The position numbers were made by a program, and so were the translations under genes. A DNA stretch of 45,668 nucleotides, from contig JAEUIV010000086.1 of assembly GCA_016795005.1 (NCBI GenBank), forward strand, positions 1-45,668, read 5' to 3'. Source of the DNA: Phycisphaerae bacterium (GTDB lineage: Bacteria; Planctomycetota; Phycisphaerae; Phycisphaerales; UBA1924). Numbering within the stretch: the stretch's first letter is position 1; each line of letters begins with the position of its first letter. Shown one piece after another: positions 18,783-43,191 of this stretch. Under the pieces are notes generated by a model that was given only the letters and a program-made list of their open reading frames with translations, ran no database searches and was not told the DNA's origin.

Positions 18783-20351
<1,569 letters not shown>

Positions 20352-24754: not shown

Positions 24755-25410
24755 GCGATGATGCTACCTGACGCATGACGACCGCGATCGAACATGGGGA
24801 CGGCGGCGTCGGGGATCATCGCGGGGAGATCGTGCGGGGCGTTGACATTGTGAGCCGACGCTGAGTCCACCGGGACGAACACGGCTGAGGCTTCCCGGAT
24901 TGCGGAGGCGAGGCTGTAGGAACCGAGGGCGGCGTGTCGGGTCAGGATCGGTCGCACGGAGGCGGAATACATCCCGGCGCACGGGTGCGGGCGGTCGGTC
25001 TGGGCGAGCACCGCCTGCCAATCGCGGCTCAGTTCGGCGGCGCGCACGATCCGCCGCGCATCGGCCGCCGAGAAGTTCGGCATATCTCCCGCGAGAACGA
25101 AGACCGGGCCGGGCCACGCATTCAACGCGGAAATGATCCCGCCCATCGGTCCGATTCCCGGGTGCTCATCGACGATGACCCCGTCGGCGAGGGGACGGAC
25201 GCTCGGATGGCAGTCGCCGACCAGTTTCACGCGCTGGCCGAAGAGTTCTCGCAGGGTCTCGATGGGTCGCTGGACCAGGATTCGCCCCGGCTCGCCGAAT
25301 GGTTCGCGGAGTTTGTCGCGGCCGAAGCGGCGGCTTCGTCCGCCGACGAGCACGACCGGCTGCACGGTGTCGAGAAACGCCGCCGTGATACCCGCGTGTT
25401 CAGCGTTCAT
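24733..25410 (-). CDS. mobA: Molybdenum cofactor guanylyltransferase
   Basis: A 225-residue MobA-type nucleotidyltransferase that links GMP to molybdopterin to form the guanine dinucleotide cofactor. It has the signature VLVGGRSRRFGRDK, the central DEHPGIGPMGGIISAL and VLAGDMPNFS with the metal-binding aspartate, and HPCAGMYSASVRP. It overlaps mogA by 11 bp and the FGE gene by 22 bp, so it sits inside one operon running moeA, moaC, mogA, mobA, FGE. Its presence suggests molybdoenzymes of the DMSO-reductase class in this organism. Confidence 0.92.
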   Translation of the reverse strand: MNAEHAGITAAFLDTVQPVVLVGGRSRRFGRDKLREPFGEPGRILVQRPIETLRELFGQRVKLVGDCHPSVRPLADGVIVDEHPGIGPMGGIISALNAWPGPVFVLAGDMPNFSAADARRIVRAAELSRDWQAVLAQTDRPHPCAGMYSASVRPILTRHAALGSYSLASAIREASAVFVPVDSASAHNVNAPHDLPAMIPDAAVPMFDRGRHASGSIIACLAHEK

Positions 25411-25954
25411 GCCGGACGACCCTTCCGGTGACGGCGGCGGCGTCCGGGCGGCCGTCGTCCTGCACTTCGCCTCGCAGTGTTTCGATGGCGTGGGGGAGGA
25501 TGTCGAGCAGCGCTTCGAGGTTTTCGCTCGAGCCGCGCACCGAGCCGGGGAGCGTGAGGATGAGTGTGCGGCCGATGGTGCCGGCGATGCCTCGCGAAAG
25601 GAACGTGCGCGGCGTCTTGCTCATGCATCGAAGCCGGGCAAGTTCCATGAGTCCGCTGTGCTCGCGCTCGAGGACGCGCCTGGCGGCTTCGGGGGTGACA
25701 TCGCGGGGCGCGAGGCCGGTGCCGCCGGTGCTGATGACGAGGTCGATGCCGGCTTCGGCGCGGCTCCACTCAACGAAACACGCGGCGAGCGCCTCCAGGT
25801 CGTCCGGCAGGCATCGCGTCGCGACGATCACCGCGTTCAACCGGGTTCTCAGGATGTGGCACAGACCCGGGCCGGAAGTGTCCGTGGCCTCGCCTCGCGC
25901 GCAGCGGTCACTTACGGTCAGCACGGCGGCTCGGATGGGTTGCGAATCACTCAT
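25400..25954 (-). CDS. mogA: Molybdopterin adenylyltransferase (MogA/MoaB family)
   Basis: Adenylates molybdopterin before metal insertion by MoeA. The 184-residue protein has the family start AAVLTVSDRCARGEATDTSGP, the substrate-binding STGGTGLAPRDVTPEA, and the later LTLPGSVRGSSENLEALL. Its ATG overlaps the moaC stop by 4 bp (25951-25954) and its 3' end overlaps mobA by 11 bp. MogA and MoaB cannot be separated reliably by sequence alone; the MogA name reflects the presence of moeA and of no other homologue in the cluster. Confidence 0.9.
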   Translation of the reverse strand: MSDSQPIRAAVLTVSDRCARGEATDTSGPGLCHILRTRLNAVIVATRCLPDDLEALAACFVEWSRAEAGIDLVISTGGTGLAPRDVTPEAARRVLEREHSGLMELARLRCMSKTPRTFLSRGIAGTIGRTLILTLPGSVRGSSENLEALLDILPHAIETLRGEVQDDGRPDAAAVTGRVVRHER

Positions 25955-26490
25955 CCGCGTGGACCTCCCGGCGCCGGGGGGGCGGAGTACGAGCCGCGAC
26001 GTCCGCCTTGCTTTTCGAGCACTCGCACGCCCTCGATCACCATGTCGCGGTCGATGGACTTGCCCATGTCGATGATGGTGAGGCAGGCGATCGAGACAGC
26101 GGTCAATGCTTCCATCTCTACGCCGGTGCGTGTCTGCGTTCGCACGGTCGCGGTGACGCGCACCCGGTGATCAACTCCGCGTTCAGATTGTTCGAGGGTC
26201 GCCAGCACGTCCACCGCGTCGAGCGGGAGGGTGTGGCAGAGCGGGATGAGTTCGTCCGTTCGCTTCGCGGCGAGGATGCCCGCGAGACGAGCCACTTCGA
26301 GCACCGATCCTTTGCCGACGGTGTTCGTGCGGATCGCATGGGCGAGTTCGGCGGAGATCCGGACGAAACCCTCCGCGACGGCCGAGCGCCGCGTGATCGG
26401 CTTCTCGCCGACATCCACCATTCGCGCCGAGCCGTCGGGCGCGGCGTGTGAAAGTTGCTTGTTCGCGGGTGCTCCGGGATGCGTCGTCAT
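25951..26490 (-). CDS. moaC: Cyclic pyranopterin monophosphate synthase
   Basis: Second step of molybdenum-cofactor synthesis: converts the MoaA product 3',8-cyclo-7,8-dihydro-GTP to cyclic pyranopterin monophosphate. From the ATG at 26490 (AGGACT upstream) it has 179 residues, slightly longer than the usual 160. Motifs are MVDVGEKPITRRSAVAEG, KGSVLEVARLAGILAAKRTDELIPLCHTLPL and GVEMEALTAVSIACLTIIDMGK. The C-terminus has an added Gly/Pro/Arg-rich tail. The frame extends to 26553. It lies 81 bp after moeA and overlaps mogA by 4 bp. Confidence 0.95.
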   Translation of the reverse strand: MTTHPGAPANKQLSHAAPDGSARMVDVGEKPITRRSAVAEGFVRISAELAHAIRTNTVGKGSVLEVARLAGILAAKRTDELIPLCHTLPLDAVDVLATLEQSERGVDHRVRVTATVRTQTRTGVEMEALTAVSIACLTIIDMGKSIDRDMVIEGVRVLEKQGGRRGSYSAPPAPGGPRG

Positions 26491-26571
26491 CTGAGAGTCC
26501 TGGTGTCGGATGGTTGCCGGCGCGTGCATCACGCCGCGGAGGACGAGGTCCATTCGGATCGAGAGGCCTTC

Positions 26572-27897
26572 TTAGAACGGCCACGCAAAGAATGGTACGA
26601 GCGGCGGCTCGCTCCGGCTCGATCGGGCTGGAGTCGGCGCGCTCAGCGGCGGAAACTCAAGGAATCCGTCGCTGCACCCGGCCGCGATGATGTCGCCTGA
26701 GCCTCGCGCGTCGATCAACTCCGCCTCCCCCGCGCGGTTGAGCCGGGCGAGGCGGTGCCACCAGAGGTCGAGCGCCAGGCCATCCGGATTGGTGAGCGGA
26801 ACGAGCCGGGGAAGACAGGGCGATGGAAGCCGGTCCGCCGACGAGCCGGCGCGCACGGCAAGGACCGGCAGCACGATGCGGGTGCATGTGACCATCGCCG
26901 AGACAGGATTGCCCGGAAGGGCGAAGATCGGCGCGGGACAACCATCCTTGCGCGCGAGCACGGCGCCGAGAATCGGCTTGCCGGGGCGCTGCGGCAGCCC
27001 ATGGAACACAATCTCCGCGCCCGCCGCCTCGACCGCTTCACGCACCGGATCGCGGTGGCCAATCGAGACCCCGCCGGTCAGCACGACGGCGTCGGCACGG
27101 CCGAGCGCGTCGCGCAGCGTCTCCTCCAGTTTGCGCGGCTCGTCCCCCGAATGCGTCACGGAGACGACTTCCATCCAGCGCTGCGATCCGAGCGTCGCGG
27201 AGATCGTCGGAGCATTGCTATTGCGAATCTGAAAGGCGGCGGGCCTGGCATGAGGGGGGACAAGTTCGTCGCCGGTGGTGATGATCGCCGCGCGCACGCG
27301 CGCATACACGCGTGGACGGACACACCCGGTCGCCGCGAGCGTGCCGAGCGCGGCGGAAGAGATCACGACGCCCCGACGAAGCACGGCGTCGCCAGCGCGG
27401 GCGTTCTCCCCGCGGCGGCGGATGCTGTCCCCCGTGCGGACCCGGGTCGCGGCGTGCCATGCGATCGAGATCGTGCTGATCCGGCCGCCGTCGGCGTGCT
27501 CGCTCACCTCTTCGCGTCGAACGACGGCGTCGGCCCCTGCCGGAACGGCCGCGCCGGTCACGATCCTGATCGCCGCCGACTCGGGCAGCGCGGGTGGTGG
27601 AGACCCGATGCGCGCTTCATCGACAACCGGGAACGATACGTGGTCGCCTTGCGTGGTGTGTCCGATGGCGCGAACGAGGTCGCTCGTGCGGATCGCGTAG
27701 CCGTCCATCGCCGAGTGATCGAAAGGGGGGCTGTCGCGGTCGCACGCGATCGCCTCGGCGAGGATTCGTCCGCGGGCGTCGTCGAGCGGGACCGGCTCCG
27801 CGTGGTCGGAGGCCCGGCCGTCGGCGAGCCGCGCGATCATGGCCTCAACCGCGGCCGCGGGGGACTCGAACGCGAACGCCTGACCGCGAAAACCCAT
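26572..27897 (-). CDS. moeA: Molybdopterin molybdenumtransferase
   Basis: Inserts molybdate into adenylated molybdopterin. From the ATG at 27897 (GGAGG 10 bp upstream) it is 441 residues, typical of MoeA. It has the domain I segment DARGRILAEAIACDRDSPPFDHSAMDGYA, IVTGAAVPAGADAVVRREEV, the MogA-like domain with TTGDELV and LTGGVSIGHRDPVREAVE, and LPGNPVSAMVTCTRIVLP before the C-terminal barrel. It heads the minus-strand operon and is divergent from moaD, with only 34 bp between the two start codons. Confidence 0.95.
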   Translation of the reverse strand: MGFRGQAFAFESPAAAVEAMIARLADGRASDHAEPVPLDDARGRILAEAIACDRDSPPFDHSAMDGYAIRTSDLVRAIGHTTQGDHVSFPVVDEARIGSPPPALPESAAIRIVTGAAVPAGADAVVRREEVSEHADGGRISTISIAWHAATRVRTGDSIRRRGENARAGDAVLRRGVVISSAALGTLAATGCVRPRVYARVRAAIITTGDELVPPHARPAAFQIRNSNAPTISATLGSQRWMEVVSVTHSGDEPRKLEETLRDALGRADAVVLTGGVSIGHRDPVREAVEAAGAEIVFHGLPQRPGKPILGAVLARKDGCPAPIFALPGNPVSAMVTCTRIVLPVLAVRAGSSADRLPSPCLPRLVPLTNPDGLALDLWWHRLARLNRAGEAELIDARGSGDIIAAGCSDGFLEFPPLSAPTPARSSRSEPPLVPFFAWPF

Positions 27898-27931
27898 GCG
27901 GGAACCTCCGCACAAACCATACACTCCGGCA

Positions 27932-28177
27932 ATGACGGTGCATGTATTGATCTTTGGCGCCGCGGCGTCGGCCGCGGGGTCCGATCGCGTGATGGTGGTT
28001 GTCGGCGATCACCCCACGGTGGATGAGATCTCTGCCGCGCTGGCTGAACAGCACCCCGCGCTGAGGTTTGCGTTGTCGGCTCCGCGTCTGGCGGTGAATG
28101 GGGCATTCGCGGGTCGTGAGACGGTCGTGGCTGAGTGCGACGAAGTGGCGCTGATCACCCTGGTGGGGGGCGGATGA
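27932..28177 (+). CDS. moaD: Molybdopterin synthase small subunit (MoaD/ThiS family)
   Basis: Sulfur-carrier subunit of molybdopterin synthase, 81 residues, beta-grasp type. It ends in the Gly-Gly tail (ITLVGGG*) that is adenylated and thiocarboxylated; the extra terminal glycine after the pair is unusual, since MoaD normally ends exactly in GG. LAVNGAF and DEVALITLVGG are typical. The ATG at 27932 fits the family; the frame is open back to 27896. Its last codons overlap moaE (ATGA), the partner catalytic subunit. The 34-bp gap to the divergent moeA leaves no room for two separate promoters. Confidence 0.85.
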   Translation: MTVHVLIFGAAASAAGSDRVMVVVGDHPTVDEISAALAEQHPALRFALSAPRLAVNGAFAGRETVVAECDEVALITLVGGG

Positions 28178-28617
28178 TGATTGCCGCGATCATCGTGGAT
28201 GGTCCGCTCGCGCCGGAGGTTGAGGAGCGAGCGCTCGCGGCCCATTCGGCTGAACGGGCCGCGCTCCTGCGCAGCGGCTCCGTCGGAGCGACCGTCCGCT
28301 TTGAAGGGATCGTTCGCCGCGACGAATCGGACCCGGATCACCCGGGAGTCGCGCGCGGATTGATTGCCCTGGACTATCAGACGTATGACCCGATGGCGCA
28401 GCGCGAACTGGAATGCCTGGCGAGGAGCGTGGGCGTTCGGCACGGACTCGAATCCGTTGTTGCGCTCCACAGCCGCGGCCGTGTCGGAGTGGGTGAGGTT
28501 TCGTTTGTGCTGGAGATTCGATCGTCGCGCCGAGCGGAGGCGATGGCGGCGATGGCGGACTTCATCGACCGGCTGAAGCGCGACGTGCCGATCTGGAAGC
28601 GGCCGGTGTGGGCGTAG
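28174..28617 (+). CDS. moaE: Molybdopterin synthase catalytic subunit
   Basis: Large subunit of molybdopterin synthase, adding two dithiolene sulfurs from MoaD. The product from 28174 is 147 residues: GATVRFEGIVRRDE (the usual GA..F.G.VR), ALDYQTYDPMAQRELE, ALHSRGRVGVGEVSFVLEI and a C-terminal region RLKRDVPIWKRPVW containing the catalytic lysines. Its ATG overlaps the moaD stop. It converges on the TauE/SafE gene 28 bp downstream. Confidence 0.92.
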   Translation: MMIAAIIVDGPLAPEVEERALAAHSAERAALLRSGSVGATVRFEGIVRRDESDPDHPGVARGLIALDYQTYDPMAQRELECLARSVGVRHGLESVVALHSRGRVGVGEVSFVLEIRSSRRAEAMAAMADFIDRLKRDVPIWKRPVWA

Positions 28618-32259: not shown

Positions 32260-33219
32260 ATGAGACTACTCGTAGCCTATGACGGATCAGACGGTGCTAA
32301 AGCCGCTATAGATGGCCTATCGCACGCAGGCCTGCCCGAGAACGCGGAGGTAGCCGTGCTTGCCGTTATCGACGGTCGCACCATGGCCAAAGCCGAAGCC
32401 AAGCAGCCCGCGGCGGGGCCGACGAAACGAGCGATCCCCGGAACAATGGAAGTGTGCTCTGCCGTCGCGGAGGAGGGAGCGAAGCGAGTACGCGGACTCT
32501 TCCCGGCGTGGAACGTGGCGGCCGAGGTGTGCGTTGGAGCCCCGGCCTGGAAGATCATCGAGCGTGCGGAGACCGACGATGGCGTGGACCTCATTGTCAT
32601 GGGCTCGCGGGGCTTCGGAGAACTCAAGCGGCTGCTCTTCGGGAGCGTCGCCCATCACGTCGTCACCCAGGCAAGGTGTTCGGTGCGAGTTGGTCGCCCG
32701 CCGAGAGGTCCTGATCGGGCCGGCGATCGGCCGCTGCGAATCGTGCTCGGTGATGACGGATCGCCGGATGCCCGGGCTGCCCTCCGATCGGTGGCGAGCC
32801 GGCGATGGCCCTTTGGAACGCGGATTCTCGTCGCGACCTTCGAGACAGGCGTGCAAGCACAACTCTCCAACTGGACGCCCAACACCGTTTGGGGTGGCGA
32901 CCCGGTCCTGGACTCCGATGCCGTCGCGGAGCGTCCGGCGCTCCTTGTGGCGGCACGGGGAGCGGAACTCCTCAAAGCGATGTGTCCTGGAGTGTCGGTG
33001 ACAACGCTCGTCCGTCCCCACGACCCGAAATATGGGTTGCTCGACGTAGCGGAGAATTGGGATGGCCCCGGTGCCGACTGCATTTTTGTCGGCGCGACTG
33101 GCGTTCGCGGAATCAAGCGGTTCCTGGTGGGGAGTGTCTCCATGACCGTGGCGCTGAATGCTCCCTGCTCGGTGGAGATCGTCCGTCGAGGGCGCGCAGA
33201 GTCACAACCTCGGAACTGA
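32260..33219 (+). CDS. Tandem universal stress protein (two UspA domains)
   Basis: A 319-residue cytoplasmic protein with two Usp domains. Domain 1 (about 1-145) opens with RLLVAYDGSDGAKAAID and keeps the ATP-binding motif G-x2-G-x9-G-S in GSRGFGELKRLLFGS. Domain 2 (about 160-319) opens with RIVLGDDGSPDARAALRS and has GATGVRGIKRFLVGS, also intact. Both domains should therefore bind nucleotide. The ATG at 32260 is preferred because AGGA lies 6 bp before it; ATG codons at 32194 and 32248 are alternatives. It precedes the histidine kinase by 10 bp, so the stress protein, kinase and response regulator form one transcription unit. Confidence 0.9.
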   Translation: MRLLVAYDGSDGAKAAIDGLSHAGLPENAEVAVLAVIDGRTMAKAEAKQPAAGPTKRAIPGTMEVCSAVAEEGAKRVRGLFPAWNVAAEVCVGAPAWKIIERAETDDGVDLIVMGSRGFGELKRLLFGSVAHHVVTQARCSVRVGRPPRGPDRAGDRPLRIVLGDDGSPDARAALRSVASRRWPFGTRILVATFETGVQAQLSNWTPNTVWGGDPVLDSDAVAERPALLVAARGAELLKAMCPGVSVTTLVRPHDPKYGLLDVAENWDGPGADCIFVGATGVRGIKRFLVGSVSMTVALNAPCSVEIVRRGRAESQPRN

Positions 33220-33229
33220 GGGAGCGTTC

Positions 33230-34393
33230 ATGAAGCCGCCTGCCCCGCAACCCGACCGATCGCCGCAGGAGCGCACGGCTGTCGCTGAGCTTGCTGAGAG
33301 GGTCAAGGAACTCACGTGCCTGTACGAGGTCGCCGCGGTCTTTGCAGAACGGCGTGGTTCACTCCGGGAGCGTCTGGCTCAAGTGGTGGCGGTGCTCCCG
33401 AGTGCATGCCGTTTCCCAGAGCAAGCGGTGGCGCGGCTTCGGCTGGACGAGATCGAGGTCTCCTCGCTGGGGAAGCCGCTCGATTCTTCGACTCAGCACC
33501 TGCAGGTTGCCCTTCGTGTCGCAGGGAATGAACGAGGCGAAGTGGTCCTCGGCTATCTTCAGACCCCGGGCACGGCGATGCGCGAGTCGGGCGAACTTTT
33601 CCTCGCCGAGGAGCGTGCGCTACTGGAAACCGTCGCAAGCCAAGTAGGCGTGTTTGTCGCAAGTGTGGAGTCCGAACAGCACCGCGCCGAGATGGAGGCG
33701 ACTCTGCGACACGCCGACCGGCTCGCGACGATCGGCCAACTCGCCGCCGGCGTCGCGCACGAGCTCAACGAGCCGCTGGGGAACGTGCTGGGGTTCGCGC
33801 AGCTCGCGCTCAAGGCTCAAGAGGTGCCCGCCCAGGTCCGAGCGGACTTGAACCGCATTGCAGACGCGGCTCTGCGCGGCCGTGAGATCATCCGCAAGCT
33901 GCTCGTCTTTGCCCGCCAGGCGCCGGCATCCAAGCAGCCGACAAATCTCAACGGCGTTGTTGAGGAGGCCATGTTCTTGCTAGAGGCCGGGTGCGAAAAC
34001 CCCGGCGTGCGCTTCAATCGCGAACTGGGGGCTGGGCTCCCGGACATCGAGGCGGACCCCGTTCAGATCCGCCAGGTGGTTACCAACCTGGTGATCAACG
34101 CCATGCAGGCGATCCGGGCCGATGGCGCCGTGACGGTCCGCACCGCCGCGGACGATGATGGGGTGGTCCTGACTGTGGAGGATACCGGCTCCGGAATGAC
34201 GCCCGGCGTGCTCCGCCGCGTCTTCGACCCGTTCTTCACGACAAAGGAAGTGGGGCAGGGCACCGGGCTGGGCCTCGCGGTGGTGCAGGGCATCGTCGCC
34301 GGACACGGCGGCACGATCGACGTGCAGTCCGAGCCTTCGCGCGGGAGTGTGTTCCGCGTCCGGCTCCCGGGGCGTGCCGCAGCACCATCTTGA
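33230..34393 (+). CDS. Sensor histidine kinase with GAF-like input domain
   Basis: A 387-residue kinase without transmembrane segments, so a cytoplasmic sensor. Residues about 20-150 form a coiled lead and a GAF-like domain (LYEVAAVFAERRGSL...AEERALLETVASQVGVFVASVE). The HisKA domain holds the phospho-acceptor His177 in GVAHELNEPLGNVLGFA. The ATPase domain has N box QVVTNLVINAMQAI, G1 VEDTGSGM, F box FDPFFTTK and G2 GTGLGLAVV. The layout is NtrB-like, and the partner is the NtrC-type regulator whose start overlaps its stop codon. GGGAG at 33220-33224 sets the start. The ligand of the GAF-like domain is unknown. Confidence 0.93.
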   Translation: MKPPAPQPDRSPQERTAVAELAERVKELTCLYEVAAVFAERRGSLRERLAQVVAVLPSACRFPEQAVARLRLDEIEVSSLGKPLDSSTQHLQVALRVAGNERGEVVLGYLQTPGTAMRESGELFLAEERALLETVASQVGVFVASVESEQHRAEMEATLRHADRLATIGQLAAGVAHELNEPLGNVLGFAQLALKAQEVPAQVRADLNRIADAALRGREIIRKLLVFARQAPASKQPTNLNGVVEEAMFLLEAGCENPGVRFNRELGAGLPDIEADPVQIRQVVTNLVINAMQAIRADGAVTVRTAADDDGVVLTVEDTGSGMTPGVLRRVFDPFFTTKEVGQGTGLGLAVVQGIVAGHGGTIDVQSEPSRGSVFRVRLPGRAAAPS

Positions 34394-35817
34394 GTAGGCT
34401 CACACAGGTGAAACCCGATACGGCCAGCATCCTCATTGTTGACGATTCACCCGCGACCCGCGAGGTGCTGGAGCGCAACCTGCGCGCCGAGGGTCACGAG
34501 GTGCATTCGGCGGCGAATGTGGCCGCGGCCATCGGCGTGCTGGACCGGGCTTCGATCGATCTTGTCGTGACCGATCTGAGGATGCCGGGCGGCGACGGCA
34601 TGGAGATTGTCCGTCACGTTCGCGATCATTGCCGCGGCGTGGGCGTCATTATGGTCACCGGGTTCGCGACCGTCGGGGGCGCTGTCTCCGCGATGCGCGA
34701 GGGGGTGGACGACTACCTCCCCAAGCCGTTCTCCGACGAGGAACTCCGTCACGCCGTTCGTTCGGCCCTCGACAAGGTGCGAACGAGACGTGAGGTGGAG
34801 AACGCCGCTCCGGTCGCGGCGCCCGACGGGCTGATCGGGACATCGCCCGCGATGCAGCGCGTCTATCGCCTCATCGACCGCGCGGCGGGTGCCAGTGTGC
34901 CCGTGCTCATCACGGGCGAGAGCGGGACCGGCAAGGAGCTCGTGGCGCGGGCGATCCACTACCGCGGACCGCGTGCGCCCGCCGCGTTCCTCGCGGTCAA
35001 CTGCGCCGCGATTCCCGAGTCGCTCATCGAGAGCGAACTGTTCGGACACGCCAAGGGGTCGTTCACCGGCGCGACAGCGGCCCGGCAGGGTTTCTTCGTG
35101 GCCGCCGATGGCGGGACCCTTTTCCTGGACGAGGTGGCGGAGCTCTCGCCAATCGCCCAGGCCAAGCTGCTGCGTGTGCTTCAGGAGAAGATGGTGCAGG
35201 CGGTGGGCGCCGACCAGTCGCGGGCGGTTGATGTCCGCGTGATCGCCGCGACCAACAAGGACCTTGAAGGTCTGGCCCGCGAGGGGAAGTTCCGCGAAGA
35301 CCTCTACTTCCGCTTGCACGTGCTGCCCATCGAACTCCCCGCGCTGCGCGACCGCGAGGGCGACGTGGTGCCGCTCTTCCGGCATTTCCTGACAACCGCT
35401 TCGGAACAGGATTCGGTGCCGGCCCCGCGGCTCACTGACGCGGCAGTAGACGCCCTGAAGCGCTACTCGTGGCCCGGGAATGTGCGCGAACTCCAGAACC
35501 TGGCGCAGCGACTGGTGATCTTTGCGGAGGCAGGCGTCATCGACACTGTGGACCTGCCGACGGTCATGCGCTACGTCACCCCGACCCCATCCGGGGCACC
35601 CACGGCTGCGCACCGGACGCTCCGGGAGGTGGAGGTGGAGCACATCCGTGCGGTGCTCGAAAGCGTGGGCGGGAACAAGACGAAGGCGTCCGCGATCCTC
35701 GGCATCGACCGCAAGTCGCTGCGCGACAAGCTGGCCAGAGGCACTCCATCGGAGACGGTCCGGGACCACGCGGGTGGAGAGAATCTCCCCGGCGGGGAGA
35801 ATCTCCCCGCGCACTGA
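34390..35817 (+). CDS. NtrC-family sigma54-dependent response regulator
   Basis: A 475-residue activator with all three NtrC domains. The receiver (about 12-125) has Asp18-Asp19, phospho-acceptor Asp62 in VVTDLRMPG and Lys112 in LPKPF. The AAA+ domain has Walker A GESGTGKE (176-183), the sigma54-contact loop GSFTGA (223-228; the common form is GAFTGA), GGTLFLDEV and ATNKDL. The Fis-type helix-turn-helix (about 425-462) has LREVEVEHIRAVLESVGGNKTKASAILGIDRKSLRDKL. A TTG at 34390 overlaps the kinase stop; a GTG at 34408 is an alternative start. The C-terminus carries a duplicated GGENLP encoded by the dyads described separately. The sigma54 promoter 60 bp downstream is its obvious target. Confidence 0.95.
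   Translation: MSRLTQVKPDTASILIVDDSPATREVLERNLRAEGHEVHSAANVAAAIGVLDRASIDLVVTDLRMPGGDGMEIVRHVRDHCRGVGVIMVTGFATVGGAVSAMREGVDDYLPKPFSDEELRHAVRSALDKVRTRREVENAAPVAAPDGLIGTSPAMQRVYRLIDRAAGASVPVLITGESGTGKELVARAIHYRGPRAPAAFLAVNCAAIPESLIESELFGHAKGSFTGATAARQGFFVAADGGTLFLDEVAELSPIAQAKLLRVLQEKMVQAVGADQSRAVDVRVIAATNKDLEGLAREGKFREDLYFRLHVLPIELPALRDREGDVVPLFRHFLTTASEQDSVPAPRLTDAAVDALKRYSWPGNVRELQNLAQRLVIFAEAGVIDTVDLPTVMRYVTPTPSGAPTAAHRTLREVEVEHIRAVLESVGGNKTKASAILGIDRKSLRDKLARGTPSETVRDHAGGENLPGGENLPAH
35776..35808. promoter_or_regulatory. Two tandem 15-bp dyads: candidate enhancer site for the NtrC-type regulator
   Basis: Positions 35794-35808 read GGGGAGA-A-TCTCCCC, a perfect dyad (extended to 9-bp arms, 35792-35810); positions 35776-35790 read GGAGAGA-A-TCTCCCC with one mismatch. 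The centres are 18 bp apart and lie about 107 and 125 bp upstream of the predicted start of the sigma54 transcript, the usual distance for enhancer-binding proteins. The site lies inside the last codons of the regulator gene and is translated as GGENLPGGENLP. No U-tract follows, so it is a poor terminator. Confidence 0.55.
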
Positions 35818-35880: not shown

Positions 35881-35897
35881 TTGGCACAACGCTTGCA
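35881..35897 (+). promoter_or_regulatory. Sigma54 (-24/-12) promoter of the glutamate dehydrogenase operon
   Basis: TTGGCAC-AACGC-TTGCA has the consensus TGGCAC, the 5-bp spacer and TTGCW, with invariant GG and GC at the correct 10-bp spacing. It lies 38 bp before the glutamate dehydrogenase start codon and 63 bp after the stop of a sigma54 activator gene. Confidence 0.88.
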
Positions 35898-35934: not shown

Positions 35935-37281
35935 ATGACCAGCGCCACCGTACCGGCCAAGTCCTCTTCAACCACTCCCCGCGCAACTCTCGTTGCGAAC
36001 GGCATCGGTGCGGCCGGCGCGCACCCACGCCTGTTCCAGCGCGTGCGCGATCAGATGGACCGCGCCGCCGAGGCCATCGGCCTCGCGCCCGAGGTCCGCA
36101 AGATCCTCTCCTCGCCCGCGTGCGAGATCGGCGTCAACTTCCCGGTGAAGATGGACGACGGGCGCGTCGAGATGTTCTCCGGCTACCGCGTGCAGCACAA
36201 CAACGTGCTCGGGCCGTTCAAGGGCGGTATCCGCTATCACCCGGACGTGAGCCTCGACGAGGTGCGCGCCCTGGCGGCGTGGATGACGATCAAGTGCGCC
36301 CTGGTGGACATCCCCTTCGGCGGCGGCAAGGGCGGCGTGCAGGTCGATCCCTCGACGCTGAGCCGCCGGGAACTCGAACGCATGACGCGCCGATTCGTGT
36401 ACGCGCTGGGCGCAAACATCGGACCGGGCTACGACGTTCCAGCCCCGGACGTGAACACCGATGCACGCACGATGGCGTGGATCGTGGACACGTACGCCGC
36501 CACCCTGCCGCCGCAGGAACGCTTCCGGGCATTGGGCGTCGTCACCGGCAAGCCGGTGAGCGCGGGCGGCTCGGTGGGGCGCGAGAAGGCGACCGGGCAG
36601 GGTGTGGTCGATCTCATCGAGATGTGGGCGGCGGACCAGCGCCGCAAGGTCGCGGATCTGTCCTACACCGTGCAGGGGTTCGGCAAGGTCGGCTCGTGGG
36701 CGGCACGCATCCTCAAGGCCAAGGACGCGAAACTGCTCGCGGTGCAGGACGCGACCGGGGCGATCAAGGCGTCCACCAGCGCGGGACTCGACGCCGATGT
36801 GCTCGCCGAGCATGTGAAGAAGACAGGCGGCGTCGCCGGCTTCGCGGGCGCTGAGGCCATTTCTCGCGAAGCGTTCTTCGCCACACAGGCCGACGTGTTC
36901 GTCCCCGCGGCGCTGGAGAATCAGGTGACGGGCGAGACCGCGCGGCTGCTCCAGGTGCGGCTCGTTGCCGAGGGCGCCAACGGCCCAACGACCACCGAGG
37001 GCGACGCGGTGCTCCGCGAGCGTCGCATCGCTGTGCTGCCGGACGTTCTGTGCAACGCCGGCGGCGTGATCGTGAGTTATTTCGAATGGCTGCAGAATCG
37101 GAGCGGCGCCGCGTGGAACGCCGCGGAGGTGGACCAGCGGCTGCGCGAGATCCTCGAACGGGCCTATGCCCGTGTGAAGCAGATGGCCACGGACAAGTCG
37201 TTGGACTGGCGAGATGCAGCGTATGCCGTGGCGCTGCGACGGATCGAGCAGGTGTACGGCGAGCGCGGCATCTTCCCATGA
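35935..37281 (+). CDS. gdhA: Glutamate dehydrogenase (Glu/Leu/Phe/Val dehydrogenase family)
   Basis: A 448-residue NAD(P)-dependent glutamate dehydrogenase interconverting glutamate and 2-oxoglutarate + ammonia. It has PFKGGIRYHPDVS, catalytic region MTIKCALVDIPFGGGKGG (Lys120, Lys132), PAPDVNTDARTMAWI, the Rossmann motif VQGFGKVGSWAA and AEGANGPTTTEGD. The start at 35935 has GGAG 10 bp upstream; residues 1-28 are a Ser/Thr/Ala-rich lead not typical of the family. It is first in a + strand run of eight genes and lies directly behind the sigma54 promoter, so nitrogen or energy state probably sets its expression through the adjacent two-component pair. Coenzyme preference cannot be told. Confidence 0.95.
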   Translation: MTSATVPAKSSSTTPRATLVANGIGAAGAHPRLFQRVRDQMDRAAEAIGLAPEVRKILSSPACEIGVNFPVKMDDGRVEMFSGYRVQHNNVLGPFKGGIRYHPDVSLDEVRALAAWMTIKCALVDIPFGGGKGGVQVDPSTLSRRELERMTRRFVYALGANIGPGYDVPAPDVNTDARTMAWIVDTYAATLPPQERFRALGVVTGKPVSAGGSVGREKATGQGVVDLIEMWAADQRRKVADLSYTVQGFGKVGSWAARILKAKDAKLLAVQDATGAIKASTSAGLDADVLAEHVKKTGGVAGFAGAEAISREAFFATQADVFVPAALENQVTGETARLLQVRLVAEGANGPTTTEGDAVLRERRIAVLPDVLCNAGGVIVSYFEWLQNRSGAAWNAAEVDQRLREILERAYARVKQMATDKSLDWRDAAYAVALRRIEQVYGERGIFP

Positions 37282-37332: not shown

Positions 37333-37761
37333 ATGAACAACCGAACCATCCACGTCACACAGCACGATATGGAGCGTCTGCGTGCCCTGATCGCGTCGGC
37401 CAGCAGCGGCCGGGGCGGAGGGGGCGATGACCGGGACCGTCCGTACCTGGCCACGCTGGCGAGCGAACTCGACCGGGCTGTCGTCGTAGGGTCCGACGAG
37501 ATCCCTCCCGATGTGGTCACGATGAACTCGCGTGCCCGGCTGAGAGACGGCCGACGCACCTGGACCATGACGTTGGTGTTCCCGGAGGACGCGAACCCCG
37601 AGGATGGCGCGATCTCCGTGCTTGCGCCCTTGGGCGCTGCCCTGCTGGGGTGCCGCGTTGGCCAGACGGTCACGTTTCGGGTTCCGGGAGGGGAGGAGCG
37701 CGCGTGCGACATCCTCAGCGTGCTTTACCAGCCCGAAGCGGCCGGCGACCTCCACCTTTGA
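37333..37761 (+). CDS. Rnk/GreA C-terminal-domain protein 1
   Basis: A 142-residue protein with the plan of the nucleoside diphosphate kinase regulator (Rnk): an N-terminal helical part (HVTQHDMERLRALIASAS) without the long GreA coiled coil, then the FKBP-like GreA/GreB C-terminal domain (IPPDVVTMNSRARLRDG...LAPLGAALLGCRVGQTVTFRVPGG). Rnk-type proteins bind RNA polymerase near the secondary channel and alter transcription. An Arg/Gly-rich linker (SGRGGGGDDRDR) separates the parts. AGGAG lies 6 bp before the ATG. It is followed 72 bp later by a paralogue. Confidence 0.88.
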   Translation: MNNRTIHVTQHDMERLRALIASASSGRGGGGDDRDRPYLATLASELDRAVVVGSDEIPPDVVTMNSRARLRDGRRTWTMTLVFPEDANPEDGAISVLAPLGAALLGCRVGQTVTFRVPGGEERACDILSVLYQPEAAGDLHL

Positions 37762-37833: not shown

Positions 37834-38217
37834 ATGACCACCCGACCCATCGTCAGCACGTTGGATAGCACCCGACTTGAGCCGTTGCTCTCGAGCAGTT
37901 GGACCGACGCACCCGTGCTCCGGCTTCGGTCGCTCTTGGAGAGTGCGAGAAAAGTCGCGCCGCCCCGGGTGCCGCCGGACGTGGTCACGATGAACTCGCG
38001 TGTGCGCGTGCGCTACCCCGGAGAGGACGAGTCAGAGGCGCTCGACCTGACGTTCCCTGACGCCGGGGGGCTCTCGGTGCTGTCTCCGCTGGGGGCGGCG
38101 CTGCTCGGCGCCCGCGAAGGCGACAGCGTGGAGTGCGCAGGGGGACGCGTGTCCAGTCGCGTGATTGTCGAGCGGATCGAGTACCAACCGGAGCGTGAGC
38201 GTCACTTCGATCGATAG
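37834..38217 (+). CDS. Rnk/GreA C-terminal-domain protein 2
   Basis: A 127-residue paralogue of the upstream gene. It shares PPDVVTMNSRVRVRYPG and LSVLSPLGAALLGAREGDSVE, but its N-terminal part (MTTRPIVSTLDSTRLEPLL) is different and shorter. It is a likely tandem duplicate that has diverged at the end thought to enter the polymerase secondary channel in this family, so the two may compete or act under different conditions. A strong AAGGAG precedes the ATG. It lies 27 bp before the HPF-TrkA-N gene. Confidence 0.88.
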   Translation: MTTRPIVSTLDSTRLEPLLSSSWTDAPVLRLRSLLESARKVAPPRVPPDVVTMNSRVRVRYPGEDESEALDLTFPDAGGLSVLSPLGAALLGAREGDSVECAGGRVSSRVIVERIEYQPERERHFDR

Positions 38218-38244: not shown

Positions 38245-39171
38245 ATGCCCCCGAGTTCAACGATTCTGCCCATCTACATCAGGCCCGGCAACCTGCAGAC
38301 GAGTTCCGCCATCGAGGCGTGGGTGCATCGCAAACTCGCCGGTGCGTTTCGACGGTACGGTTCCAAAATCACGGCCGTCGAGGTTCACTTCGAGGACGTC
38401 AACGGCCCCAAGCACGGCGCTGCGGATGCTCGGTGCGTGATGGAGGCGCGGGTCAACGGGCGATCGCCGATTGCCGTTCACGCTCGTGCTGGCGATCTGT
38501 ACGCCGCGATCGGCGCGGCGTCCCGCAAGCTCGACGCGGCCATCTCCCGAGTTGTTGAGCGGACCGATGCCCGTGCGCGGCGACGGTTCCGTCAGGAACG
38601 TCAGGAGAATGGAACGGCCGCGCCGTTTGATGGGGTCGGAGCAGTCGGACCGGAAGCCGGCGCATTCGGACGTGAAGCAGGGGCCGCGTCCGGCCGTGCA
38701 CAGCGCCGGGGCGTAATCATCGCTGGCTTCGGCCCGGTCGGACGCGCACTTGCCGATGAACTGACGAAACACCGGGTGCCGATCACCGTCGTGGACACCA
38801 ACGCTGCGACCATCCGCAGGCAAGACGGCCTCGGCGTCACCGTGCTCTGCGGCGACATGACCGACCCCGAGGTCCTGCGCCGCGCAGGCATCGAGACGGC
38901 CGCGGCTCTCGCGGTCACGATTCCGGACGGCGCCGAAGCCGTGAGGGCATGTGCGGCGGCACGTGCGCTGTCCCCGGACGTGCACATCTCAGCACGCACT
39001 ACGTTCCTCAGCCAGGGGCTGGAGGTCATGCGAGCAGGCGCCAACTCCATCACGGTGGAAGAGATCGCCACCGCGAGCGCGCTGGCACGTGTCGTTACCC
39101 AGCAACTCACCGGCAAACTCCATCGTCCCGATTCCGAGGCCCTGATGACGCTTCAAGGGGCAAACGAGTAG
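38245..39171 (+). CDS. Fusion of ribosome-hibernation (HPF/RaiA) and TrkA-N NAD-binding domains
   Basis: A 308-residue protein in one uninterrupted frame. Residues about 8-110 match HPF/RaiA (sigma54-modulation) proteins: ITAVEVHFEDVNGPKHGAADARCVMEARV and DLYAAIGAASRKLDAAISRVVER. In hibernating ribosomes these block the mRNA and tRNA sites. Residues 111-155 are an Arg- then Gly/Ala-rich linker. Residues about 156-290 form a TrkA-N/RCK Rossmann domain: GVIIAGFGPVGRALADEL with GFGPVG at 161-166, Asp184 at the end of strand 2 (suggesting NAD(H)), GDMTDPEVLRRAGIETA, and no membrane segment. TrkA-N domains normally gate potassium channels or Kef systems. The combination suggests nicotinamide-controlled hibernation, an inference. 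GGAAG precedes the ATG. Confidence 0.9.
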   Translation: MPPSSTILPIYIRPGNLQTSSAIEAWVHRKLAGAFRRYGSKITAVEVHFEDVNGPKHGAADARCVMEARVNGRSPIAVHARAGDLYAAIGAASRKLDAAISRVVERTDARARRRFRQERQENGTAAPFDGVGAVGPEAGAFGREAGAASGRAQRRGVIIAGFGPVGRALADELTKHRVPITVVDTNAATIRRQDGLGVTVLCGDMTDPEVLRRAGIETAAALAVTIPDGAEAVRACAAARALSPDVHISARTTFLSQGLEVMRAGANSITVEEIATASALARVVTQQLTGKLHRPDSEALMTLQGANE

Positions 39172-39240
39172 CATGCGTCGATCGCGGCATCGCAACGCAG
39201 CAACATTTCCTGTGCAGCCGTGAACCGTAGAGAGCATCAC

Positions 39241-40155
39241 ATGGGTAGCCTCAACTCCGCCCTCGTCGCCGTGGACTTCTCCCCTTGCTCCGCCGTGGCA
39301 TTCAAGGCGGCCAGGCGCATCGCGGACTGCAACCGCGCATCGTTGCGAGCCGTGCACGTGGTGGCGCTCCCGTCGTTCGAGCTGGCACCTCATCCGCTCT
39401 TCCCCTTCACTCTGCCGACCCAGGCCGATCTGGTTTCGGATGCGAGGGAGTCTTGGGCCCGGTTTCTGGCTGACACGGGCGTGCCGACCGATGTGACGTG
39501 CGACATCGAGGTCGGCCGTCCCCGCGATGCCATCCTGGAATCGGTGGCTCAGGCTCGTGCGGACCTGCTCGTCCTGGGAGCGCACGGCGTCCACGATGCG
39601 TACAAAGGCATCGGTCCCACGGCTGCCGCCTGCATGCAGCGTGCCAAGACACGGGTCTTGCTGGTCCGAGAGGACCACGCGGGGCCGTTCCGCAGCGTCG
39701 TGGCCTGCGTGGACTTCACGGAGACTTCCATGCTCGCCCTGCAGGAAGCAATCCGAGCCGCGGCGCAGGACAGCGCGGCGCTCAGCATCCTCCACGTGTA
39801 CGACGACCCGTGGCACGGACTCCGTCCCCCTGTGGGAATCCAGGTGAACATGCCCGATTTCTCGGCTCAGTTTCGGCGCCGTGTCGAGGACCGCCTACGC
39901 GAGTTCTGCGCGCCATCTGCGCACGAGCTGAGCGCACTGAAAGCCACCTACCAGTGCGTTGAGTCGCAGTGGCGCGGTGGTGGTTACGGCCATGCCATCG
40001 TGCGATTCGTGAAGGAGCAACGATGCGACCTGGTTCTGCTGGGCACGCGCGACCGTTGGAACATCCGGGACATGGTGTTCGGATCAACGGCTGAGCGGGT
40101 CGTGCGCGAGGCACCTTGCTCAGTTCTCGCCGTCAAGCCCGATCTCGCTTCTTGA
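39241..40155 (+). CDS. Universal stress protein with two divergent Usp domains
   Basis: A 304-residue protein with two Usp-like halves: SALVAVDFSPCSAVAFKAARRI and later SVVACVDFTETSMLALQEAI. The nucleotide-binding loops are degenerate: half 1 has GAHGVHDAYKGIGPTAA and half 2 has GTRDRWNIRDMVFGSTAERV, in which the second glycine of G-x2-G is lost. ATP binding may thus be weak or absent, unlike the intact protein at 32260. The ATG at 39241 is preferred over a GTG at 39220 because AGAGAG precedes it. It is fifth in the sigma54-headed run. Confidence 0.88.
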   Translation: MGSLNSALVAVDFSPCSAVAFKAARRIADCNRASLRAVHVVALPSFELAPHPLFPFTLPTQADLVSDARESWARFLADTGVPTDVTCDIEVGRPRDAILESVAQARADLLVLGAHGVHDAYKGIGPTAAACMQRAKTRVLLVREDHAGPFRSVVACVDFTETSMLALQEAIRAAAQDSAALSILHVYDDPWHGLRPPVGIQVNMPDFSAQFRRRVEDRLREFCAPSAHELSALKATYQCVESQWRGGGYGHAIVRFVKEQRCDLVLLGTRDRWNIRDMVFGSTAERVVREAPCSVLAVKPDLAS

Positions 40156-40188: not shown

Positions 40189-40725
40189 ATGACCTGGGAC
40201 ATCATCTTCGGGTGCGTGACCATCATCATCGCCCGCGTCGGCGACGTATCCCTGGGGACGATGCGCACTGTGGCAGTTGTCAGCGGACACCGGGGCGTGG
40301 CGTGGCTGCTTGGGCTCCTCGAGATGACCATCTGGGTATTCGTCGTGTCGGCGGTCATCGAGCACATCCGGACGGAGCCTGCTTATGGCATCGCGTTCGC
40401 ATTCGGCGCTGCGACGGGGAACTACATCGGAGTGACCCTCCAGGGATGGCTTCCATTCGGCAGTCAGGTGGTGCGCGTGTTCACCCGAGATGGGGCGATG
40501 CTGTTCGAGCGGCTTCACCGGGAAGGCTTCGCTGTCACGAGGTTCCAAGGGGAGGGAAGAGACGGGGCTGTGGCCATGCTCTTTGTGCAAGTAAGCCGTG
40601 CCCGGACCCGGCACGTTCTTCGTGCAGCGCGCGAAGTGGATCCACGGTGTTACTACACCATCGACGACATCCGCACTGCGAGCGCAGCGAGTCACACCCC
40701 GTCGTCCACCGGCCCCAGTTCGTGA
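40189..40725 (+). CDS. UPF0316 membrane protein (DUF5698/DUF2179)
   Basis: A 178-residue protein with three hydrophobic segments in its first 90 residues (IIFGCVTIIIARVGDVSLGTMRT, GVAWLLGLLEMTIWVFVVSAVIEHI, AYGIAFAFGAATGNYIGVTLQGWL) followed by a soluble ferredoxin-like DUF2179 domain (VVRVFTRDGAMLFERLHREGFAVTRFQGEGRDG...LFVQVSRARTRHVLRA). The family is widespread and uncharacterised; the DUF2179 part resembles small-molecule-binding domains. AAGG lies just before the ATG. Confidence 0.9.
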   Translation: MTWDIIFGCVTIIIARVGDVSLGTMRTVAVVSGHRGVAWLLGLLEMTIWVFVVSAVIEHIRTEPAYGIAFAFGAATGNYIGVTLQGWLPFGSQVVRVFTRDGAMLFERLHREGFAVTRFQGEGRDGAVAMLFVQVSRARTRHVLRAAREVDPRCYYTIDDIRTASAASHTPSSTGPSS

Positions 40726-40747
40726 ACCCGGAAGAAGGAGACATGCC

Positions 40748-41110
40748 ATGCAGAACCCATCTGATCGGGAGTTGCTCAAGACCATCGCTTCGCAGCGTCG
40801 CGAGCTGACGCCGGATGTGTCCGCGGCGTTTCAGGCGTTCCAAAGCAAGGTCTTCGCTGAAGGCGCATTGAGCGCAAAGTCAAAGCAGATCATCGCGGTC
40901 GCGGTGGCGCATGTCACGCAGTGCCAGCAGTGCATCCAGTCTCACACGAAAGCCGCGCTGCGCGCCGGCGCGACTCCGCCGGAGTTGATGGAGGCTGTTT
41001 GGGTCGCGGCCGAGATGCGGGCCGGTGGCGCGTACGCGCACTCGACCGTCATGCTCGCCGCGATCAACGAGGAGCAGAGTGCACAAGGCGCTCAGGAGTG
41101 CCGATCATGA
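40748..41110 (+). CDS. AhpD-like carboxymuconolactone decarboxylase-family protein
   Basis: A 120-residue CMD-family protein with the complete redox motif: AVAHVTQCQQCIQSHTKAALRAGATPPELMEAVWVAAEM, that is CxxC plus histidine as in AhpD alkylhydroperoxidases. Such proteins reduce peroxides or act as disulfide reductases with lipoylated partners. It starts at 40748 behind AAGGAG, 22 bp after UPF0316, and its stop overlaps the DUF488 start by 4 bp. A redox role in the stress operon is plausible. Confidence 0.9.
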   Translation: MQNPSDRELLKTIASQRRELTPDVSAAFQAFQSKVFAEGALSAKSKQIIAVAVAHVTQCQQCIQSHTKAALRAGATPPELMEAVWVAAEMRAGGAYAHSTVMLAAINEEQSAQGAQECRS

Positions 41111-41541
41111 GCACGGCACGTGACCAAGTCAGACTCAAGCGCGTATACGACGACCCGGAACCGGGCGACGGCTTCCGCGTGCTGGTGGACCGCCTCTGGC
41201 CCCGCGGGTTGACCAAGGCCGCCGCGCGAGTGGACCTGTGGATGAAGGAGGTCGCGCCCTCGAAGGACCTGCGTCGCTGGTACCACGCGGACCTCTCGCG
41301 CTGGGCGGACTTTCGCAAACGATACAAGGCCGAGTTGACCGACCGACAAGGCCCGGCCTACGCCGCGCTCGGTGAACTCCGTGCACTGGTGCTCGAACAC
41401 TCTTCCCCACCCACGCGCGGCAAGAAGGGCAGAGCCGGGAAGCAGGGCGTCACGCTCGTCTACGGCGCCAAGGACGCCGAGCAGAACCACGCCATCGTGC
41501 TGCGCGAGGTGCTGCTGCGTCGTGCCGGCCGCGGCCGGTGA
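41107..41541 (+). CDS. DUF488 family protein
   Basis: A 144-residue soluble protein of the DUF488 (YeaO-like) family: VRLKRVYDDPEPGDGFRVLVDRLWPRGLTKAAARVDLWMKEVAPSKDLRRWYHAD, FRKRYKAEL and VTLVYGAKDAEQNHAIVLREVL are diagnostic. The biochemical function is unknown; homologues are found near oxidative-stress and heme-related genes. The ATG at 41107 overlaps the previous stop (ATGA). It ends the tightly spaced part of the operon; the next gene is 100 bp away. A 14-bp perfect palindrome (CCGGCCGCGGCCGG, 41525-41538) covers its last codons but has no loop. Confidence 0.9.
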   Translation: MSTARDQVRLKRVYDDPEPGDGFRVLVDRLWPRGLTKAAARVDLWMKEVAPSKDLRRWYHADLSRWADFRKRYKAELTDRQGPAYAALGELRALVLEHSSPPTRGKKGRAGKQGVTLVYGAKDAEQNHAIVLREVLLRRAGRGR

Positions 41542-41641: not shown

Positions 41642-42484
41642 ATGCCAAGCATTGCGCCGACCCGGATTGATCCTCCGGTCGATCCTGTCCGCGATCACAT
41701 CCTAGGCTCTCCCGATGCGGAGATGACGCTCGTCCAGTACGGAAGCTATGCGGACTTCCGCTGCCGCGCGGTTCACGCGGTGGTCGAGGGGCTGCGGAAC
41801 CGCTTCGGCGATCGGATGCGGTACGTGTTCCGGCATCTTCCCGTCGAGGGGAAGCCAGACGCCATGCGGGCGGCCGAGATCACGGAGCGCGTGTCCGCAT
41901 CGACCGGCAAGTTCTGGGAACTCCACGAAGCGTTCATGGAGCGTGGGCCGACCCTGACCGCCTCCGAGATCGACCGGATCGCGCGGAGCCACGGATTCGG
42001 GGGTGAACGTGGCGCAGACGACCCAGCCGCCGTGGCCGCGGCGCGGGCGCGGGTGCGAGCGGACATCGAAAGTGCGCAGCGCAGCGGTGCTCCTGCGGCT
42101 CCCGCCTTCTTCATCAATGGCCGCTGCTACACCGGCACGTGGGACGAGAGCTCGCTGGCCGATGCGATGCTCGCCCCGCTTGGCCATCGCATCCAGGCCG
42201 CGGCGTTCAGGTTCGTCCGCTGGGGACCTTCCTCCGGGTTGCTTTTGGGCCTGGCGACCGTCCTGGCATTGGTGCTGAGCAACTCGCCGCTGGGCGCACA
42301 GTTCGTCGCGTTCTGGGAAAAGCCCCTGGGCGTCCTGTGGGGCTCGGCCACGTTTTCGCACTCGTTGCTCCACTGGGTCAACCATGGGCTTCTGTCGGTG
42401 TTGTTTTTCGTCGTCGGGCTTGAGATCAAGCGTGAGTTTACCGTGGGCCATCTTGCGACGTTCCGATCGGGCGCTCTTCCTCCC
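41642..42484 (+). pseudogene. DsbA-like/NhaA fusion, truncated early in NhaA
   Basis: Residues about 20-180 form a DsbA-like thioredoxin domain (MTLVQYGSYADFRC, ITERVSASTGKFWELHEAFM, SGAPAAPAFFINGRCYTGTWDE). The usual CxxC is DxxC, so only one active-site cysteine remains. From about residue 192 an NhaA sodium/proton antiporter begins: GLLLGLATVLALVLSNSP and HWVNHGLLSVLFFVVGLEIKREFTVGHLATFRSGALP. It then stops resembling NhaA after about 90 residues, near 42480, before most transmembrane helices and the ion-binding aspartates. The frame continues to 42718 through foreign sequence. No antiport function is expected. There is no Shine-Dalgarno before the ATG. Confidence 0.8.
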
Positions 42485-42702
42485 TTTGAAGGACCGGCCG
42501 AAGCGTGGCGCATTCACCGGATACCCGCACCTCACTCTCGCCGTGCATGCCGACCACCTGGAGGTGGCGATCACCATTCCGAACGGCGTGATTCGTCCGG
42601 TCCGTCAGCGGCTCATCGATCTCGGCTCCGACCGCCTGACCGCTATCAATGCGAAGATCCTGCGCCGCGCGCGGCGGCTGATCTCACGGGGCGCATGGAT
42701 CC
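42468..42702 (+). pseudogene. Internal fragment of an unidentified gene
   Basis: In the frame one base off the NhaA remnant, about 75 codons read like genuine protein: LFLPLKDRPKRGAFTGYPHL, then LTLAVHADHLEVAITIPNGV, then a helix-rich RQRLIDLGSDRLTAINAKIL. I do not recognise the family. There is no start signal and the frame leaves protein-like sequence near 42700, where the LOG-family piece begins. It lies between two other truncated genes and is best taken as debris of recombination. Confidence 0.4.
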
Positions 42703-42717
42703 ATCGGCCGATCTCTA

Positions 42718-43191
42718 ATCGGCGCTGGCTATCGCGTGCTTACCGGCGGGCTTGGTGGTGTGATGGAAGCGGCCTGCCGCGGGGCTCGCTCGTCCGCCAA
42801 GTATCAGGCTGGGGACACGGTGGGCATTGTGCCCGGGCACGACCCCAGGGACGCGAACGCATTTGTGGATGTCGTCCTTGCCTCCGGTCTCGACCATGTC
42901 CGCAACTCCGTCGTGGCGCATGCCGACGCGGTCATCGCCATCGGCGGAGGCGCGGGCACGATGTCCGAGATCTGTTTCGCCTGGATTTACAAGCGCCTGA
43001 TCATCGGCATGCGCGTCGAGGGCTGGAGCGGGCGAATGGCCGACCAGCGAGTGGATGAGCGAATCCGATACCCGAGCGAACCAGACGATCGGGTCTTTGG
43101 GGCGGATTCGGCGGACGAAGTCCTTCGCACCCTTGTGGATCGGCTCGCGCACTTCTCCGACCACCATCGCTGCGTGCGTCGCCGTGATTGA
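42718..43191 (+). pseudogene. LOG/SLOG-family protein (TIGR00725-like), N-terminus missing
   Basis: About 157 residues of a TIGR00725-like Rossmann protein: GAGYRVLTGGLGGVMEAACRGA, VGIVPGHDPRDANAFVD, VVLASGLDHVRNSVVAHADAVIAIGGGAGTMSEI and KRLIIGMRVEGW. The family normally starts about 35-40 residues earlier with the first beta-strand and nucleotide loop (I-x-V-x-G), which are absent; similarity begins abruptly at 42718. A GTG at 42736 could start translation, but the fold would lack its first strand. The remaining PGGG-x-GT-type motif (IGGGAGTMSE) is intact. Confidence 0.7.

Follow-up and report, generated by a model that had tools for sequence, protein, structure and literature searches.

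The question raised by this locus is whether a single reading frame joins an HPF/RaiA ribosome-hibernation domain to a TrkA-N/RCK Rossmann domain and, if so, which ligand the second domain would bind and how this would act on hibernation. The window, i.e. the whole stretch of 45,668 nucleotides that was analysed, is part of a 3.1 Mb MAG that is most closely related to Phycisphaerales. An earlier note, made from the letters alone, had proposed such a frame, and the profile searches showed a 308-aa open reading frame with both PF02482 and PF02254 above their Pfam cut-offs (Table 1). The AlphaFold model (12 sequences), which is monomeric and of moderate confidence with a mean pLDDT of 67.5, exhibits the HPF order of elements, disorder at residues 123-153, a Rossmann fold and, at residues 277-288, a final helix.

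Full-length in-frame homologues were found in 9 further genomes, with 64-85% identity and one at 50%, and the indels in the linker were multiples of three. In comparisons with the window, dN/dS for the closer pairs was about 0.1 in the HPF part as well as in the RCK part, the RCK value being about 0.1-0.17 in pairs with unsaturated dS, while in the linker of the closest pairs dN was close to dS. The in-frame homologues, the frame-keeping indels and the dN/dS of about 0.1 in the flanking domains rule out a frame artefact at the linker, which the earlier note had named as one way in which its claim could fail. The HPF-RCK fusion is real and not an assembly or sequencing error. These ratios indicate strong purifying selection on both domains and a linker that evolves nearly freely, its frame never broken; selection on both domains of one protein with a free tether is the simplest reading. 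No description of an HPF-RCK pairing was found in open-access PubMed Central papers, in agreement with the note, which knew of no characterised protein of this kind.

Table 1. Features of the fusion gene, its operon and adjoining genes, in positions of the window
Feature	Positions	Strand	Evidence or remarks
Sensor histidine kinase	33158..34393	+	HisKA + HATPase_c; synteny
NtrC-type sigma-54 response regulator	34390..35817	+	receiver, AAA+, helix-turn-helix by sequence inspection; synteny
Perfect sigma-54 promoter TGGCAC-N5-TTGC, TGGCACAACGCTTGC	35882..35896	+	shortly ahead of the GDH start codon (35935)
Glutamate dehydrogenase (GDH; ELFV), first operon gene	35935..37281	+	profile match; synteny
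Rnk-like RNA-polymerase-binding protein 1	37333..37761	+	PF14760 + PF01272 (GreA_C), NF004396 over cut-off
Rnk-like protein 2	37834..38217	+	PF01272 38.5 bits
HPF-TrkA_N fusion gene	38245..39171	+	308 aa, ATG start, RBS-like AGGAAG upstream
HPF/RaiA domain (residues 15-106)	38287..38562	+	PF02482 Ribosomal_S30AE 37.6 bits, cut-off 23.7
Flexible linker (residues ~120-153)	38602..38703	+	pLDDT mostly <50, frame kept
TrkA_N/RCK Rossmann domain (residues 157-269)	38713..39051	+	PF02254 85.1 bits, cut-off 23.8; GFGPVGR, D184, D204, R251
Predicted crossover helix (residues 277-288)	39073..39108	+	AlphaFold; RCK dimerisation element by analogy with KefC
Tandem-domain universal stress protein (Usp)	39220..40155	+	PF00582, two stretches
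DUF5698/DUF2179 protein	40189..40725	+	profile match
AhpD-core peroxidase-like protein	40742..41110	+	TIGR00778 61.1 bits
DUF488 protein	41107..41541	+	profile match

In the HPF family, the HPF domain occupies the decoding site of the 30S subunit and shuts out mRNA and tRNA. The HPF part of the fusion did not reach the stricter equivalog TIGR00741 (33.6 vs 40.9 bits). Its best PDB sequence match is 7m4z_v, the ribosome-bound HPF of A. baumannii (2.5e-15), on which it superposes with a TMt of 0.83 and an rmsd of 2.3 (Foldseek). In the alignment with Thermus HPF, K95, R102 and R112 take the places of the 16S rRNA contacts R86, R93 and R103, Y86 that of the core Tyr77, and R37, beside the aromatic Y38, that of Tyr31. 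As the HPF fold and the rRNA-contact residues are kept, ribosome binding by the fusion is expected. The domain, the fold and the contact positions are those of the short HPF/RaiA proteins (best solved match 7m4z_v), which however have neither the linker nor the RCK domain. Two to four HPF genes were counted in each of 17 genomes checked, so the fusion is best regarded as an extra hibernation factor. The window genome carries further HPF genes at G000:C136:3549-3830 (L001) and G000:C125:8066-8311 (L003), one canonical and one divergent; the canonical one is of 100 aa and lies beside PtsN- and HPr-like genes, named by sequence inspection.

Long HPF proteins pair ribosomes via a C-terminal dimerisation domain placed behind a linker (PMC6177447, PMC9522360). 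They and the fusion have in common an N-terminal HPF domain, an unstructured linker of about 30 aa and a small C-terminal domain, which in the fusion is expected to dimerise, but this last domain is a TrkA_N with a nucleotide site in the fusion and PF16321 (S30AE_C) in long HPF. PF16321 was absent from the fusion protein and from 61 of 61 related genomes, and matched in 8 of 14 control genomes. The order Phycisphaerales thus appears to be without the long-HPF dimerisation domain.

We then considered the RCK part, for which the best PDB sequence match is 3fwz, the TrkA-N domain of E. coli YbaL (6.9e-15; Z 19.3 with VIA-align); with the same program it superposes on the YbaL, KefC and GsuK RCK domains with Z about 19. 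By sequence comparison, the domain is of the Kef/RosB antiporter type. GFGPVG (161-166) and Asp184 are present as the earlier note had claimed. Using an ungapped offset of 245 to KefC, the ribose, adenine and phosphate ligands D429, D449 and R496 correspond to D184, D204 and R251, and the AMP ligands R409 and D472 to Pro164 and Pro227. Position 164 is Pro, Val, Leu or Ile in the local antiporters. Since Arg409 and D472 are replaced by Pro, nucleotide binding may differ from that of KefC. The glutathione-site residues R409, Q412, R416, R498 and R516 are lost, P164, R167, D171, T253 and V271 being found in their places. In the 8 fused members, G161, G163, G166, D204, D228 and R251 are invariant and residue 184 is acidic. 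The fusion therefore has in common with the KefC and YbaL RCK/KTN domains the Rossmann fold, the GxGxxG motif, the acidic ribose residue, the equivalents of D204 and R251 and the crossover helix, and differs from them by the absence of a transporter and of the Kef C-terminal helices, by the two Pro replacements and by the lost glutathione site.

YbaL (3FWZ) binds AMP, and Kef is stabilised by NADH as well (PMC10224563); KefC also binds AMP, which drives the dimerisation of its RCK domains (PMC11150392). As D184, D204 and R251 are kept and both YbaL and KefC are AMP-bound, the ligand is likely to be an adenine nucleotide, with AMP as the first guess, and the effect of NADH on Kef makes NAD(H) a possible ligand. 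The order also contains a related family of stand-alone soluble TrkA_N proteins of about 150-180 aa, mostly with GYGPVGR (L047 about 5445-5876, L048 6040-6504, L049 6620-7144 and L050 6936-7418). Those of L048 and L049 lie near a threonyl-tRNA synthetase-like gene, possibly another link between RCK domains and translation.

Profile matches identified the Rnk-like, Usp and AhpD neighbours in which the earlier note had seen a dormancy role, and support a stress/dormancy operon setting. In 12 of the 15 loci, with or without the fusion, a sigma-54 site that is perfect or differs at one position is located 2,348-2,421 bases ahead of HPF; both strands of 467 kb gave 11 perfect matches, every one of them at this pre-operon position. 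Most of the loci that extend far enough have a histidine kinase and an NtrC-type regulator ahead of the operon, and no sigma-70 promoter was found on the operon strand within the operon. The sigma-54 promoter is probably under the control of the adjacent kinase/NtrC pair. Beyond the operon, the gene at 41642-42718 joins a thioredoxin/DSBA-like domain to the beginning of an NhaA-type antiporter; its similarity to L026 ends near 42572 and the L043 version has 611 aa, so that the window copy is either truncated or affected by an assembly fault. Elsewhere in the window, an ATP synthase beta-like gene (18783-20222, minus strand) has no obvious other ATP synthase genes adjoining, and a cluster resembling molybdenum-cofactor biosynthesis genes lies upstream of the stress region (24733-28617).

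The distribution of the architecture, for which the earlier note had suggested a search, was determined in sequences that include MAGs. A close-relative scan of 84,980 species genomes gave 11 loci, all from Planctomycetota, with the whole fusion in 7 of them at 68-85% identity, one on a 3.6 Mb chromosome record. Within the order Phycisphaerales, 10 of 400 genomes carry the fusion, window included, the most distant one, at 50% identity, being that of G306 (= L042). Phylum-wide (392 genomes), HPF and TrkA_N matches were only separate, the window excepted, and among plasmids no match covered 80% of the fusion query. Nine loci of the order were read for other HPF fusions and no second recognisable domain was recognised after HPF; the long open frames with HPF matches at most of them look like GC-rich stop-free leaders.

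The window, L024-L028 and L043 have the fusion in the gene order GDH-Rnk-Rnk-HPF-RCK-Usp or in one much like it. L031, L032, L033 and L034/L008 have in that slot an HPF-only gene of about 120-135 aa, with Usp or DUF5698 directly behind it (sister order GDH-Rnk-Rnk-HPF-Usp-DUF5698), and tblastn gave no match to a TrkA_N remnant behind the HPF-only genes of those loci. The presence of HPF-only and HPF-RCK genes in one operon slot implies that the RCK domain was gained or lost as a unit and at one fixed position, and the sisters constitute a natural with/without comparison. In the operon tree (GDH+Rnk+Rnk), 8 fused rows form one clade (83/97), G306 lies outside it on a long branch, and a single clade of all 9 fused rows is not rejected (p-AU 0.159). 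In the HPF tree a single fused clade is rejected (p-AU 0.022), with G306 outside both groups. In the RCK tree the fused domains form one weak clade (57/85) among Phycisphaerales Kef/RosB antiporter RCKs. The RCK domain may have been gained once, early, and then lost in some lineages, or it may have been gained twice.

The closest concept to the HPF-RCK fusion is HibA, described in 2026, an archaeal protein in which an HPF/RaiA domain carries an AMP-preferring CBS module that, tethered in this way, occupies tRNA sites (PMC13324472). Both proteins tether an HPF domain to an adenylate-binding regulatory module, predicted as such in the fusion. However, HibA is archaeal, with a CBS module and a C-terminal HPF domain, whereas the fusion is bacterial, with an RCK domain and an N-terminal HPF domain, and a profile search gave no match for a CBS module in the fusion protein. 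As HibA is archaeal, the two are separate fusions.

Our best model, with a probability of roughly 45%, is that the fusion is an additional hibernation factor induced by stress, whose RCK dimer, with an adenine nucleotide bound, acts as a gate on the pairing of ribosomes or on their occupancy. The factor would be transcribed from the sigma-54 promoter, probably under the adjacent kinase/NtrC pair, and its HPF domain, judging from fold and contact residues, would enter the 30S decoding site and block mRNA and tRNA. The flexible linker would tether an RCK domain of the Kef/RosB type, able to form dimers and to bind an adenine nucleotide, with AMP as the likeliest one; dimerisation that depends on this nucleotide could then join two 70S ribosomes, each with bound HPF, or adjust occupancy in some other way, the RCK domain serving as a ligand-gated replacement for the missing long-HPF dimerisation domain. 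This model is supported by the kept HPF fold and contacts, by the AMP-binding YbaL and KefC as nearest RCK relatives with conserved ligand-site residues, by the AMP-induced KefC dimer, by the absence of PF16321 and by the constraint on both domains. The presence or absence of RCK in one slot, the conserved sigma-54 promoter and the canonical HPF elsewhere in the genome support it as well. Against it stand the change of R409 and D472 to Pro, the syntenic HPF-only sisters that do without RCK, and the finding that AMP or ATP had no clear effect on ribosome binding by HibA (PMC13324472). That an RCK domain derived from a potassium/proton antiporter has replaced the long-HPF dimerisation domain, making ribosome pairing conditional on AMP or NADH, is a tentative proposal.

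The earlier note had read the RCK domain as an NAD(H) redox sensor through which the NADH/NAD ratio directly sets hibernation. The GxGxxG motif with an acidic residue ending strand 2, the NAD+ or NADH bound by related KTN/RCK domains (1lss, 2hmt, 4gx2) and the stabilisation of Kef by NADH are consistent with this; but the closest relatives of known structure, YbaL and KefC, use these residues to bind AMP, D184, D204 and R251 fit any adenine nucleotide, and the sequence presents no dinucleotide-selecting feature. We consider such a sensor unlikely: of that reading, the hibernation domain and the nucleotide-binding RCK in a stress operon are supported, and the NAD(H) specificity lacks support in the form proposed. 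The RCK domain could also act as a plug covering vacant 50S tRNA/factor sites, the nucleotide being structural or affecting release only, as suggested by the HPF-tethered AMP-binding CBS module of HibA, which is found at three 50S sites and is not shifted by AMP (PMC13324472). The RCK and CBS folds are, however, unrelated, the domain order is reversed and Kef-type RCK domains act as dimers, so this role is doubtful too.

Binding to a partner, either a Kef-type antiporter or the co-transcribed GDH, which would prevent HPF from reaching the ribosome until there is a change of ligand, would agree with an RCK domain closest to those of local antiporters, with GDH as first operon gene and with the two-way inhibition by mutual sequestration between S. 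aureus HPF and the GDH-like YwlG, for which the HPF C-terminal domain is critical (PMC9522360). As YwlG is only distantly GDH-like and operons whose HPF has no RCK contain the GDH too, we judge it improbable. The HPF-only sisters in the same slot would even allow the RCK domain to be a passenger, left over from a neutral fusion and without any part in regulation, but its dN/dS of about 0.1-0.17 beside an unconstrained linker, together with the invariant ligand-site residues, makes this very improbable and disfavoured.

For bacterial hibernation factors, the control known so far acts mainly through their synthesis, e.g. by ppGpp. If the HPF-RCK protein is a fused metabolite sensor, the control of hibernation would be direct, fast and reversible, and the architecture, carried by uncultured Planctomycetota in a stress operon with a promoter of its own, suggests that hibernation could respond directly to the energy or redox state of the cell. 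Together with archaeal HibA, the fusion suggests that bacteria and archaea came independently to couple HPF with adenylate-binding modules.
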